Positions 54,018 to 64,000 of a stretch of 64,000 nucleotides of DNA are shown here, in pieces. The notes beneath the pieces were generated by a model. It saw only the letters and a list, made by a program, of their open reading frames with translations, did no database searches and had not been told where the DNA came from. The position numbers and the translations under genes were made by a program. The stretch's first letter is position 1. Each line of letters opens with the position of its first letter. The DNA is taken from assembly GCA_947445035.1 (NCBI GenBank), contig CANFCK010000022.1, positions 16,231 to 80,230 on the forward strand. Direction: 5' to 3'. The DNA comes from Deltaproteobacteria bacterium (GTDB lineage Bacteria > Myxococcota_A > UBA796 > SXON01).

Positions 54018-54727
54018 TACGCTCCGCGGTGATGGCACTGCCGCGATTCGCACGAAATGTCGCCCTGGTCGTCGCCCGCATCGTCGGGCAGAACGATCTC
54101 TTCGAGAAACCGGGCGAACGTGCGCGCACGCCGTCGTTGGCCTCGCCGCGCACCGACCCCGTGCCGGTTGCCGTGACGGCTGCCCCCGCGGTAAGCCCCG
54201 CCAAGGCGAAGAAGGCGGCCTCAAAGAAGGGTCCGGCCGAAAAGTCCGCCATCCCTCTCCAGGATCCGGCGCGTCCCACCTCCGGTTGCCGTCCGGTCGA
54301 CCTTGCTGGGCTTCGGCACGCGCTCACGCCCAATGGGAAGCCCCTGGTCATCAACCACTGGGCCAGCTGGTGCGACCCCTGCGTGGACGAGCTGCCGCGG
54401 CTGGTGCGCGCCGCGGCCGGCGTCGCCGACATCGGCGAGTTCATGGGGCTGAGCTGGGACCTGTTCGACCACCCCGGCGACCCCGATGCGGTGGCGAAGA
54501 AGGTGGCTTCGTTCGCGGACAGTGTCGGCGTCGGCTACGCGAGCGTCCTCTTCGTCGGGGAGCCAGCCGAGCTCTTCGCAGCGCTCGGCCTGGACAGTGA
54601 GCTGATTCCCCAAACCGTCGTCTACGCGCCGGACGGCACCATCGCGTGGAAGAAGAATGGCGTGCTCGAACACGATGACGTCTTCCCGCTCATCCGGGCG
54701 GTCAAGGCGGCCGCGGGGGTCGCTTGA
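54014..54727 (+). CDS. thioredoxin-like protein, probably membrane-associated
   Basis: A 237-residue protein. The N-terminal 90 residues are a basic, Lys/Ala-rich linker after a weakly hydrophobic start; the thioredoxin fold follows with the active site NHWASWCDPCVDELP (CxxC, about residue 125) and the cis-Pro region IPQTVVYAPDGTI. It resembles TlpA/ResA-type thiol oxidoreductases. GTG at 54014 overlaps the previous stop; the ATG at 54032 is an alternative. No clear signal peptide, so its compartment is uncertain. Second gene of the operon. Confidence 0.8.
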   Translation: MIRSAVMALPRFARNVALVVARIVGQNDLFEKPGERARTPSLASPRTDPVPVAVTAAPAVSPAKAKKAASKKGPAEKSAIPLQDPARPTSGCRPVDLAGLRHALTPNGKPLVINHWASWCDPCVDELPRLVRAAAGVADIGEFMGLSWDLFDHPGDPDAVAKKVASFADSVGVGYASVLFVGEPAELFAALGLDSELIPQTVVYAPDGTIAWKKNGVLEHDDVFPLIRAVKAAAGVA

Positions 54728-56274
54728 TGATGCGCCGGGTAGCGGCGTCCGGCTTTCTGCTCCTCGGACTTGGGCTTGTGGCCCTTGGCTGCCCCAAGAA
54801 GGTGCCCGAACCGCTGTCGCCGCCGGGCCGCATCACCATCATGCACACCAACGACCTGCACGGGCACTACCTCCCCGAGCGCGCCGACTGGTTGACCGGC
54901 GAGCCCGAGATCGGGGGTTTTGTCCGGATGGAGCAAGAGGTGCGGGCGATTCGAACTGAACGAGGTCGCGACAACACCCTGCTTCTGGACGGGGGCGACA
55001 TCCTCACCGGGACGCCGCTGACGGCCATCAAAGAAGAGGGCGCGTGGGGCACGCCCATGCTGCGCTTCATGGAGGCGGTGGGCTACGACGCCTGGGCCGT
55101 CGGCAACCATGAATTCGACCGCGGGCTCGACAACATCGGCCTGTTGTCGTCCAAGGCTCCGTTTGCGGTGCTCAGCGCCAACGTGCGCGCCAAGGGCGGC
55201 AAGTCCCCCCTGCTGCCGAACCAAGGGTACAGTCGCGTCTTTACCGTCAACGGCCTGCGCGTGGGGGTCATCGGAGCCACGACCGACAGTCTGCGCTCGT
55301 TGGTCTCGCCCGCCGATTGGGCGCGGATGGACACGATCCCCGCCAACGACGCCCTCCGCGCCGAGGTGTCGGCGCTCGACCCGCAAACGGACGTCATCAT
55401 CGCGCTGACGCACTTGGGCGTCGATGCGGACAAGAAGCTTGCGGCGGGGGTCCCGGGCATCGACCTCATCGTCGGCGGTCACAGCCACACCCGACTGACC
55501 GCGGCGGTGAAGCAGGGCGACACCTGGATCGTGCAAGCAGGCAGCTACGGCCGCAGTCTCGGGGTCGTCGAACTCGACATCAGTAACGACGCGGTGGTCG
55601 CCTTCCACTACGAGCTGCGTGATCTCGTCCTGGACACCGCAACGGTCGAGGCCGACCCTTCGCTGGTGGGGTTGGCGGAACACTACCGCACCAACATCGA
55701 CACCTTGTACGGCGAAGAGCTCGGCAAGGCCCCGGGGAAACTCGACAAGGAGTACGCGCACGAGAGCGCGCTCGGGCGGTGGATCAGCGATGCGCTCCGC
55801 GTCACCACCCACAGCGACGTCGGGATCTACAATGGCGGCGGCCTGCGCTCCGAGATCGTCGCCGGGGTGGTCACGCGGCGGCACCTCTTCGAGTGTTTCC
55901 CTTTCGAAAATGCGGTGCTGACGTTTACGCTGCGTGGCGACCAGATTGTGAGTCTGGTGCTGAAGAACATCGCGGCCGACCTCGACGGAAAACATGGCTT
56001 CTTGCCGCTCGGCGGCGTCACCTGGTCCTGGCGCGACAAGGCCGGCGCGCCCGAGATCGCCAGCCTCTCGGTCGCTGGCCAGCCGATCGATCTCAGTCGC
56101 ACCTACACGGCTGCGTCTACGTCCTACATCGTCGAGCAGGGCCAAAAGCACCTGGGTTTTGTTCCGGCCGACGCCGTGCCGGCGGGTCTCAACGACTTCG
56201 AAGCGGCGCTGCAATACGCGCGCCAGGCTGGTTTCAGCGATTCGGGTCAGAAGCGGGGGGTCCGGGTGGAGTGA
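54727..56274 (+). CDS. 5'-nucleotidase/2',3'-cyclic-nucleotide phosphodiesterase family lipoprotein
   Basis: A 515-residue exported lipoprotein (lipobox LVALGC) of the UshA/CpdB family. The N-terminal metallophosphatase domain has HTNDLHGHY, LDGGDILTGTP, AVGNHEFDRG, ALTHLGVD and VGGHSHTRL, the complete set of dinuclear metal ligands. The C-terminal nucleotide-binding domain follows (NGGGLRSEIVAG, CFPFENAVLTFTLRGDQI). It hydrolyses extracytoplasmic nucleotides. The ATG overlaps the previous stop (TGATG). In the operon with a cyclic-nucleotide-binding protein, a link to nucleotide signalling is tempting but unproven. Confidence 0.92.
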   Translation: MMRRVAASGFLLLGLGLVALGCPKKVPEPLSPPGRITIMHTNDLHGHYLPERADWLTGEPEIGGFVRMEQEVRAIRTERGRDNTLLLDGGDILTGTPLTAIKEEGAWGTPMLRFMEAVGYDAWAVGNHEFDRGLDNIGLLSSKAPFAVLSANVRAKGGKSPLLPNQGYSRVFTVNGLRVGVIGATTDSLRSLVSPADWARMDTIPANDALRAEVSALDPQTDVIIALTHLGVDADKKLAAGVPGIDLIVGGHSHTRLTAAVKQGDTWIVQAGSYGRSLGVVELDISNDAVVAFHYELRDLVLDTATVEADPSLVGLAEHYRTNIDTLYGEELGKAPGKLDKEYAHESALGRWISDALRVTTHSDVGIYNGGGLRSEIVAGVVTRRHLFECFPFENAVLTFTLRGDQIVSLVLKNIAADLDGKHGFLPLGGVTWSWRDKAGAPEIASLSVAGQPIDLSRTYTAASTSYIVEQGQKHLGFVPADAVPAGLNDFEAALQYARQAGFSDSGQKRGVRVE

Positions 56275-58595: not shown

Positions 58596-58618
58596 CTCGT
58601 TGAATAACTCTCAACGAG
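58596..58618 (+). promoter_or_regulatory. putative TetR operator CTCGTTGA-N7-TCAACGAG
   Basis: A perfect 8-bp inverted repeat with a 7-nt spacer, 17 bp upstream of the tetR start codon. It covers the -35 and most of the spacer of the predicted promoter, the classical place for TetR-family autorepression. Confidence 0.75.
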
Positions 58619-58628
58619 AGACTACACT
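58600..58628 (+). promoter_or_regulatory. promoter of the tetR-alkB operon, probably leaderless
   Basis: TTGAAT (58600-58605), 17-bp spacer, TACACT (58623-58628), and then six C residues before the ATG at 58635. With a usual -10-to-start distance, transcription would begin at the A of the start codon, and no ribosome-binding site is present. Confidence 0.6.
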
Positions 58629-58634
58629 CCCCCC

Positions 58635-59201
58635 ATGAGCCGTGCCGCCGCTTCCGAAGCCCGCCGCGCCGCGCTGTTGGCGCTGGGCAAACGTATTTTC
58701 GCCGAGCAGCCCTACGATCAGGTGTCCACCGAGCAGATCGCGACCGAGGCCGGGGTTTCGACGGGTCTCCTTTACCACTACTTCGAAAATAAGAAGGGCT
58801 TCTACGTGGCGACGGTCCGCGCCGCGACGGACGAGCTCCTCGCCGCGGTGAGCTTTCTTCCCGGCCGCCCGTTGGCGGAGTCGGCGCTCGGCGCGCTCGA
58901 CCAGTTCGTGGCGTTCGCCGAAGCCAACGCCGCCCTGTACCAGGGTGTGATGCGGGGGAGCGGCGCGGACCCGCGAGTGCAGGCCGTCGTGGAAGAAGTG
59001 CGATTGACCCTGACCGCACGGCTCCTCGCCGCCGCCAGCGTCGCCGCGACGCCTCGGTTGCGGCTCCAATTGTACGGCTGGCTCGGCTTCGTGGAGTTCG
59101 CGACGCTCCGCTGGCTGCGCCACCCCGACGTCGACCGCACCGAGCTCCTGACCCTGTGCCTGGGCGCCGCGCCCCCCTCGCTCTTGGAGAAATCGCCATG
59201 A
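58635..59201 (+). CDS. TetR-family transcriptional regulator
   Basis: A 188-residue one-domain regulator. The N-terminal HTH is classical: ALGKRIFAEQPYDQVSTEQIATEAGVSTGLLYHYFENKKGFYVATV (residues 16-61). The C-terminal ligand domain is helical and not informative. A perfect inverted repeat lies just upstream of its own start, so autoregulation is likely. It overlaps the alkB-like gene by 4 bp (ATGA), which suggests that it controls that hydroxylase, perhaps in response to alkanes or fatty acids. Confidence 0.9.
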   Translation: MSRAAASEARRAALLALGKRIFAEQPYDQVSTEQIATEAGVSTGLLYHYFENKKGFYVATVRAATDELLAAVSFLPGRPLAESALGALDQFVAFAEANAALYQGVMRGSGADPRVQAVVEEVRLTLTARLLAAASVAATPRLRLQLYGWLGFVEFATLRWLRHPDVDRTELLTLCLGAAPPSLLEKSP

Positions 59202-60253
59202 CTCCCTTCTTCCTCGCGTTCGTCCCACCCCTCACCCTCTTCGCCGCCACCGCACTCGGCGGACCGGCCCTCTTCCTGCCGGCCATCGTGCTCTTCGGCG
59301 TGGTGCCGCTCCTGGACCAGGTGCTGCCCCAAAACCGGGACAACACTGCGGTCGCAGGCTGGGTGCGTTCTCTGGCGAACCTGTGCGTGCTGGCCCACAT
59401 CGCCGCGGTGGCCTTTGCGCTTTACACCGTCGTCCACGGTGGGCTCAGCCCCGCCCCAGCGGGCGTCCTGGTCCTCGGCACGGGCTTTGCCGGAGCCGCG
59501 GCGATCAACGTCGCCCACGACCTGATGCACCGCCCGGGACGGGTCCCCCAGGCGCTGGCCGCGGTGCTCCTCTCGACGGTTTTGTACGCCCACTTTTGCG
59601 TCGAACATGTGCAGGGGCACCACAAGCGGGTCGGGACCTTGGCCGACCCGGCCACCTCCCGTCTCGGCGAGTCGTTGTTTCGCTTTTTGCCTAGGAGCCT
59701 ATCCGGCGGGCTCCGTTCGGCCTGGGCCATCGAGTGGGCGCGCGTGGGCCTCGCCACCGACAATCGGATGATTCGCTACGGGCTCGGTCAGGCCGTACTC
59801 GTCGCGGGGATCGGGCTAGGGCTGGGACCGCTGGGCCTGGCCGCCTTTGTCGGCCAGGCCGTCGTGGCCGTGTTGATGTTGGAGACCATCAACTACATCG
59901 AACACTACGGCCTCATCCGGGCCGAGGTGGCCCCCGGTCGCTTCGAGCGCGTCCGTCCCGAACACTCGTGGAACTCGAGCCATCGGGTGTCCAACTGGAT
60001 GTTGCTCAACCTCGCGCGGCACAGCGACCACCATGCGTTCCCGGCGCGCCCGTTCACCGAGCTGCGTCACCACGACGACGTGCCGCAGCTGCCTTGCGGC
60101 TACAGCGCCATGTTGTTGCTCGCGACGATTCCGCCCTTGTGGTTCAGGGTGATGGACCCGCGGGTGCGGACTGCGAGCAAAGCCATCGCCACCGGCGAGC
60201 GCGAGCACGGCGAGAACACCGACGCGGAGCTGACTGCCGTGGGGCGTGCATGA
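59198..60253 (+). CDS. alkB: alkane 1-monooxygenase (AlkB)-family membrane hydroxylase
   Basis: A 351-residue integral membrane di-iron hydroxylase. All four His motifs of the AlkB family are present in order: AHDLMHR (HxxxH), EHVQGHHKRVGT (HxxHH), NYIEHYGL (the AlkB-specific HYG motif) and ARHSDHH (HxxHH). Five or six transmembrane helices surround them. The enzyme hydroxylates terminal methyl groups of alkanes or fatty-acyl-like chains using O2 and electrons from rubredoxin, which is not encoded nearby. GGAG lies 11 nt before the ATG, which overlaps the TetR stop. Confidence 0.9.
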   Translation: MTPFFLAFVPPLTLFAATALGGPALFLPAIVLFGVVPLLDQVLPQNRDNTAVAGWVRSLANLCVLAHIAAVAFALYTVVHGGLSPAPAGVLVLGTGFAGAAAINVAHDLMHRPGRVPQALAAVLLSTVLYAHFCVEHVQGHHKRVGTLADPATSRLGESLFRFLPRSLSGGLRSAWAIEWARVGLATDNRMIRYGLGQAVLVAGIGLGLGPLGLAAFVGQAVVAVLMLETINYIEHYGLIRAEVAPGRFERVRPEHSWNSSHRVSNWMLLNLARHSDHHAFPARPFTELRHHDDVPQLPCGYSAMLLLATIPPLWFRVMDPRVRTASKAIATGEREHGENTDAELTAVGRA

Positions 60254-63559: not shown

Positions 63560-63646
63560 TGTCAGTGTGGCGCGCGTGGCACCCCCGGTGCTTCCAGTCG
63601 TGCCGAAGCCGGGCGGCTGGGATAGACTCGCTCGGTCGGAGTTCTC

Positions 63647-64000
63647 ATGTCGTCCATTGTGTCCTCGCTCATCCTCTTGTCGCTCGTCGCCTGCGTTCCC
63701 GTCACTGTCGAGTCGGAGTACGCCAAGGACACGGTGCCGACCATCGACGAGCCGCTTCGCGAGACCGGTGAGTCCGACGCGGACACCGATACGGATACCG
63801 ATACCGATACCGATACCGATACCGATACCGATACCGATACGGATACGGATACCGATACGGCGGACACCGGCGACACCGCGGAGCCCGACACCGGCGACAC
63901 CGCGGAGCCCGACACCGGCGACACCGCGGAGCCCGACACCGGCGACACCGCGGAGCCCGACACCGGCGACACCGCGGAGCCCGACACCGGCGACACCGCG
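63647..64000 (+). CDS. lipoprotein with Asp-Thr repeat tail, N-terminal part
   Basis: Runs off the window end; 118 codons are visible. Signal peptide MSSIVSSLILLSLVAC with lipobox, then 30 ordinary residues, then 13 Asp-Thr dipeptides (residues 46-71) and an octapeptide repeat DTGDTAEP of which nearly six copies are seen. GGAG lies 6 nt before the ATG. The acidic, extended spacer probably lifts a C-terminal domain (outside the window) off the membrane. The track shows only antisense shadow ORFs here. Function unknown. Confidence 0.72.
   Translation, partial: MSSIVSSLILLSLVACVPVTVESEYAKDTVPTIDEPLRETGESDADTDTDTDTDTDTDTDTDTDTDTDTDTADTGDTAEPDTGDTAEPDTGDTAEPDTGDTAEPDTGDTAEPDTGDTA
63782..63859 (+). 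repeat. hexanucleotide microsatellite GATAC(C/G), 13 units
   Basis: Thirteen in-frame 6-bp units (the first GACACC, then GATACC or GATACG) encoding Asp-Thr. Such repeats change length by slippage without shifting the frame. Confidence 0.9.
63863..64000 (+). repeat. 24-bp tandem repeat GACACCGGCGACACCGCGGAGCCC
   Basis: Almost six identical copies visible, encoding DTGDTAEP; the array continues beyond the window. The lack of silent differences between copies suggests recent expansion or ongoing homogenisation. Confidence 0.9.

Follow-up and report, generated by a model that had tools for sequence, protein, structure and literature searches.

A predicted self-contained, autoregulated tetR-alkB lipid-oxidation switch in a bacterial lineage with no detectable rubredoxin

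Most environmental medium-chain alkanes are oxidized by AlkB enzymes (PMC8918992), whose need for rubredoxin, or for a fused electron donor, is taken as general; a genome survey labels alkB/M rubredoxin-dependent (PMC9535955). The 64000 nt stretch of DNA analysed in the present study (the window) carries an AlkB-type gene that overlaps a gene for a TetR-family regulator, which raises the questions of how the two genes are controlled, to what signal they might respond and from where the enzyme might draw its electrons. The explanation that we consider likely, taken as a whole, is that the pair forms a self-contained, autoregulated lipid-oxidation switch. Its features are as follows.

58596..58618, no strand assigned: perfect inverted repeat CTCGTTGA-N7-TCAACGAG, the predicted operator with extended arms
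58600..58614, no strand assigned: predicted operator core TTGAATAACTCTCAA, which matches TTGAA-N5-TTCAA at 9/10 positions and ends 20 nt before the start codon
58600..58605, plus strand: -35-like hexamer TTGAAT, within the operator
58623..58628, plus strand: -10-like hexamer TACACT, 6 nt before the start codon
58635..59201, plus strand: tetR, 188 aa, with TetR_N and TetR_C_46 domains
59198..59201, plus strand: ATGA, the tetR stop overlapping the alkB start
59198..60253, plus strand: gene for an alkB-type membrane di-iron hydroxylase, 351 aa

The original prediction had placed an exact repeat across the -35 and spacer of TTGAAT-17-TACACT, and an ATGA overlap between tetR (58635-59201) and alkB (59198-60253); both are present exactly as described, with a spacer of 17 nt and the tetR ATG at 58635. 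Elsewhere in the window, reading by eye revealed a calcineurin-like 5'-nucleotidase ORF (54724-56274), followed, up to 58538, by a large BNR/photosystem-repeat-like ORF with a MYXO-CTERM-like tail (SECGCGVGGRRGWLG..RGRKRG), and, on the minus strand at 63562-63996, a highly repetitive SPVSGSAV/SVSVSV ORF frame that is probably low-complexity or tandem-repeat sequence. The MYXO-CTERM-like tail hints, tentatively, at a Myxococcota-like organism.

Searches for relatives with both the TetR and the AlkB proteins yielded six more tetR-alkB pairs within the family of the window (G004, G005, G012, G013, G015 and G018); a scan of contigs returned one real orthologue, already within our genome set. Across genera, tetR is the sole conserved neighbour of the type I alkB in the neighbourhoods examined, and the flanking genes vary. 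A conserved third operon gene, such as one for a ferredoxin, was considered and rejected, because no such gene is found repeatedly in the type I neighbourhoods. Four relatives (G001, G002, G003 and G007) carry a similar alkB without this tetR, and the G003 contig ends 306 bases upstream of alkB. In a second arrangement, seen in five genomes (G008, G010, G011, G017 and G019), alkB is followed by a different TetR gene downstream. Several of the modules of this second type (at L046, L047, L048, L050 and L052) have a GAACG..CGTTC-like palindrome just upstream of alkB, and such modules also sit in genomes without rubredoxin. All of these genomes are drafts.

The AlkB protein of the window (P0002) consists of a single FA_desaturase domain of the FA_desaturase superfamily, and matches the AlkB structures 8f6t (FtAlkBG; E 5e-69) and 8sbb (E 4e-56). 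A complete di-iron set of nine histidines and one glutamate is present (H107, H111, H137, H141, H142, E235, H236, H275, H278 and H279), and the ten iron ligands of FtAlkB, for which both the ligand list and the rubredoxin-docking residues Arg143, Arg148 and Arg169 have been published (PMC10113152), are kept in the window protein and in all 20 family sequences. The NYxEHYGL motif is represented as NYIEHYGL, and the N-terminal ferredoxin and ferredoxin reductase domains that define the ferredoxin-fused AlkBs are lacking. The substrate may nevertheless lie outside alkane catabolism: it is quite possible, although we do not prefer it, that the enzyme hydroxylates an endogenous acyl chain in lipid biosynthesis or remodelling and that the repressor senses the state of the membrane lipids, a reading compatible with the regulatory part of our explanation. 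TetR homologues with the same operator adjoin FA-desaturase-like ORFs (G029 and G023), and no third gene recurs by the pair, unlike in the plasmid alk clusters with their aldehyde and alcohol dehydrogenases. Against this, the nearest solved relatives of the enzyme are alkane hydroxylases, and fatty-acid signals induce true alkane operons too, for example alkW1-alkX (PMC8784404).

The original prediction had also stated that no rubredoxin gene lies nearby, which is correct but understated. The rubredoxin domain PF00301 was found neither in the window's own genome, nor in any of 22 family genomes (18 with AlkB; 12 of the 22 at least 90% complete with low contamination), nor in 62 of the 63 genomes of the order. 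The same search was sensitive enough to find rubredoxin in 26/124 genomes of the phylum and 7/14 control genomes, and across the phylum rubredoxin was missing from 46 of the 52 AlkB-positive genomes sampled. RUBY_RBDX (PF21349), the rubredoxin-like domain of rubrerythrin, is absent from the family too. The one rubredoxin of the order (at L055, in G022) adjoins an FprA-like flavo-di-iron ORF, and AlkB was not detected in that genome. An ordinary rubredoxin-fed AlkB, whose rubredoxin either was not assembled or has diverged beyond detection, might be argued for on the grounds that every well-studied AlkB uses rubredoxin or a fused ferredoxin (PMC8918992) and that the genome is only approx. 92% complete; we consider this unlikely in view of the zero count among the 22 family genomes, the single occurrence in the order beside an FprA-like ORF and apart from any AlkB, the demonstrated reach of the search within the phylum and the lack of RUBY_RBDX as well.

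In the AlkB tree, one fully supported clade unites FtAlkB with the plasmid enzymes that have rubredoxin neighbours, and the group to which the window protein belongs lies outside it. Rubredoxin occurs in five of the seven phylum genomes with an AlkB inside that clade, whereas it occurs in one of 33 others (Fisher p = 0.0002, an optimistic value because the genomes are related to one another). Three of the five alignable rubredoxin-docking arginines are lost in the window AlkB, which has P/Q/Q at FtAlkB positions 143/148/169; in the six AlkBs that have a rubredoxin gene no more than a few kb away, all three positions carry basic residues (K, R and K/R), and the ferredoxin-fused Polaromonas AlkB has T/L/Y. 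Some AlkBs from rubredoxin-less genomes of the phylum keep two of the three basic residues and one keeps them all, and in G071, the only rubredoxin-positive genome that falls outside the canonical clade, AlkB has none. Because AlkBs outside the rubredoxin clade keep some of these residues, the docking face alone is no proof of the donor. Given that PF00301 went undetected and that the docking arginines are partly lost, rubredoxin does not appear to be the donor as it is for a canonical AlkB, and we therefore file the protein as an AlkB homologue rather than as a canonical rubredoxin-dependent AlkB. Among 11 Fer2 matches in the genome is a short plant-type 2Fe-2S ferredoxin, on contig C6 near 43852. 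Since no rubredoxin is detectable in the lineage, the most likely source of electrons is a soluble [2Fe-2S] ferredoxin system whose genes lie elsewhere, so that the donor would be a non-rubredoxin protein and probably a [2Fe-2S] ferredoxin.

The regulator belongs to the TetR family (PF00440, E 3.7e-14; PF21943, 28.4 bits with a cut-off of 27), its AlphaFold model is helical (pLDDT 91.9), and its recognition region, S-x-GLLYHYF, is nearly invariant among its homologues. The top structural match of the model is 2qib, an uncharacterized Streptomyces TetR protein; the model also resembles FasR (TM 0.78, 22% identity), a likeness of fold that is generic for TetR proteins. The NCBIfam entry for FasR is matched only weakly (residues 8-160, score 41 with a curated cut-off of 330); the NCBIfam names were rejected for this protein, all scoring far under their cut-offs, and its PHROGs matches carry no function. 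TetR homologues adjoin FA-desaturase-like and other lipid-enzyme-like ORFs, recognized from motifs read by eye. Also by eye, we noted PF10118-type hydrolase-like ORFs and flavin (Baeyer-Villiger/AlmA-like) monooxygenase-like ORFs beside TetR homologues of the clade at L026, L030, L033 and L034. FasR detects long acyl-CoA by means of a tunnel (PMC7382501), and its likeness to the window TetR, together with the homologues that lie beside desaturase-like ORFs, points to a long-chain lipid as the candidate ligand.

Within the window the CTCGTTGA-N7-TCAACGAG repeat is the sole match at up to three mismatches (0.27 in shuffles), and a search for the same repeat elsewhere in the 5.27 Mb assembly, as suggested with the original prediction, again gave this site as the sole match with fewer than three mismatches. 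A shorter motif, TTGAA-N5-TTCAA, is found at 9-10 of 10 positions upstream of 12 of the 15 TetR homologues, some of which have other genes as neighbours. Its summed score was 130, compared with 91.3 +/- 2.7 (maximum 100) for dinucleotide shuffles, a figure that is somewhat flattering because the motif had been spotted by eye in the same sequences before it was scored; the fairer control is that of gap length, in which every gap other than N5 scored 91-107. The window repeat is a divergent copy of this predicted operator, from the core of which it differs at one position. In six of the seven tetR-alkB pairs a second, overlapping copy lies 14 nt upstream, and the window has one copy only, with longer perfect arms and no distal copy. 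The predicted operator covers the -35 position in each of the seven, and the palindrome is strongly conserved together with the TetR protein.

At up to one mismatch the core occurs in 13 places in the genome, namely this promoter, one tRNA-like sequence and 11 sites inside predicted coding ORFs, which is the control level (13 compared with 12). An extended regulon was therefore rejected. The sole perfect TTGAA-N5-TTCAA in the genome (L129 1501-1515; G000:C4:246588) lies inside an apparent tRNA gene and is for that reason no operator. As no promoter in the assembled genome other than that of tetR has a copy at this stringency, the regulator looks like a dedicated autorepressor, and TetR appears, on these sequence comparisons, to be devoted to its own operon. 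It is very unlikely that the palindrome serves another regulator, or that TetR is an activator or a global regulator: some TetR proteins do activate, as FasR does (PMC7382501), but the motif follows this TetR clade across differing neighbour genes, its place over the -35 is that of a repressor, and the genome has no second promoter copy.

Transcription of tetR is predicted to start at the A of its ATG, so that the transcript would be leaderless. With 8/12 matches to consensus the promoter is weak on consensus alone, and it is absent from the promoter scan listing, for which the scanner threshold is 9/12; it is credible because it is conserved among the tetR-alkB pairs. All seven pairs, that of the window among them, have TAnnnT at exactly 6 nt upstream of the tetR start, and six have TTGAxx 17 nt upstream of it, G005 having AATGAA there. 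The tetR ATG is the earliest possible start in its frame, the TetR N-terminus is conserved among homologues with aligned residues beginning at Met1, and reading of the upstream regions revealed no Shine-Dalgarno-like sequence before the start in any of the pairs. The same arrangement recurs well beyond this locus. In a survey of 864 kb of the same genome (L056-L095 plus the window; 1837 candidate ATG/GTG starts in 537 predicted genes), TAnnnT was observed exactly 6 nt before ATG/GTG 27 times, compared with 4.6 +/- 1.9 at background distances. The -10-like element of tetR is thus placed as expected for transcription from the start codon, and the predicted leaderless layout is a normal class in the genome and no peculiarity of tetR; here the original prediction, which had called the leaderless transcript unusual, does not hold, and we discarded the idea of an oddity of this gene. 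A literature search for leaderless genes in Myxococcota, Myxococcus or deltaproteobacteria yielded nothing useful. That the hexamers are fortuitous, and that the true start lies further upstream on a transcript with a leader, is highly improbable, for although the promoter matches consensus at only 8/12 and went unlisted, the element at 6 nt recurs in 7/7 orthologues, peaks sharply at the identical distance genome-wide and precedes starts that have no Shine-Dalgarno-like sequence. By contrast, the central claim of the prediction, a compact autoregulated repressor-enzyme module in which the operator overlies the promoter and the start is leaderless, gains support from the orthologues, in which all three elements appear to be kept.

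Taken together, we propose that a TetR dimer would bind TTGAA-N5-TTCAA where it spans the -35 and spacer of the tetR promoter, blocking RNA polymerase and silencing tetR and alkB together. A long-chain lipid, possibly a fatty acid, an acyl-CoA or a related substrate or product of AlkB, would fill the ligand cavity of TetR and cause its release. Translation of alkB would be coupled through the ATGA overlap, and the membrane di-iron hydroxylase would oxidize an alkyl chain with O2, drawing electrons from the ferredoxin system. More tentatively, and with rather less confidence than in the switch itself, we suggest that the window represents an AlkB lineage that dispenses with rubredoxin and takes its electrons from a free ferredoxin (or from some other donor), under the control of a TetR clade not described before, whose operator is TTGAA-N5-TTCAA and whose autoregulated promoter is leaderless. 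An AlkB lineage among bacteria in which no rubredoxin is detectable would make the question of the electron donor directly testable and would affect how alkB genes in metagenomes are read. The operator and its repressor, with a single target, would provide a compact sensor of long-chain lipids, defined by sequence, outside the Actinobacteria.

The closest known circuits are those of AlkX and AlkU, TetR repressors of alkB-rubredoxin operons (PMC8784404, PMC6921075). In the AlkX/AlkW1 system of Dietzia, fatty acids relieve TetR repression, with autoregulation (PMC8784404), and AlkU of Rhodococcus jostii RHA1 binds the alkB promoter region (PMC6921075); according to a review, alkB seems to be under TetR control in Actinobacteria only. 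The window resembles these circuits in having a TetR gene in the same unit as alkB. However, their regulator lies downstream of the alkB and rubredoxin genes, whereas in the window tetR is upstream and overlaps alkB, rubredoxin is undetected and the operator is different. The AlkU-like protein of R. opacus has a match to PDB 5ydp (E 8.5e-46), which we take to be AlkX. The window TetR is only 24% identical with that protein over 113 aa and 5ydp is not among its PDB matches, and on both counts we rejected it as an AlkX/AlkU orthologue.

With FtAlkBG, the AlkB-rubredoxin fusion of Fontimonas thermophila (PDB 8f6t; PMC10113152), the window AlkB shares 42% identity, the ten iron ligands and the NYIEHYGL and RHSDHH motifs, but it has no rubredoxin domain, HDLMHR and EHVQGHH replace HELGHK and EHNRGHH, and the docking arginines have given way to P/Q/Q. 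The Polaromonas ferredoxin-reductase-ferredoxin-AlkB fusion (PMC8918992; locus L104) is similar in its non-basic residues at 143/148/169 and its EHVxGHH motif, but it is approx. 30% identical, has three domains and sits on a long tree branch, whereas the window protein is not fused to any donor. FasR of Mycobacterium tuberculosis (PMC7382501) resembles the window TetR in predicted fold and through the weak NCBIfam match, but it is an activator of fatty-acid synthesis and of low sequence identity. The logic of the switch would thus be that of the AlkX/AlkU circuits, and what appears to be new is the non-orthologous regulator, the gene order, the operator and the missing rubredoxin.
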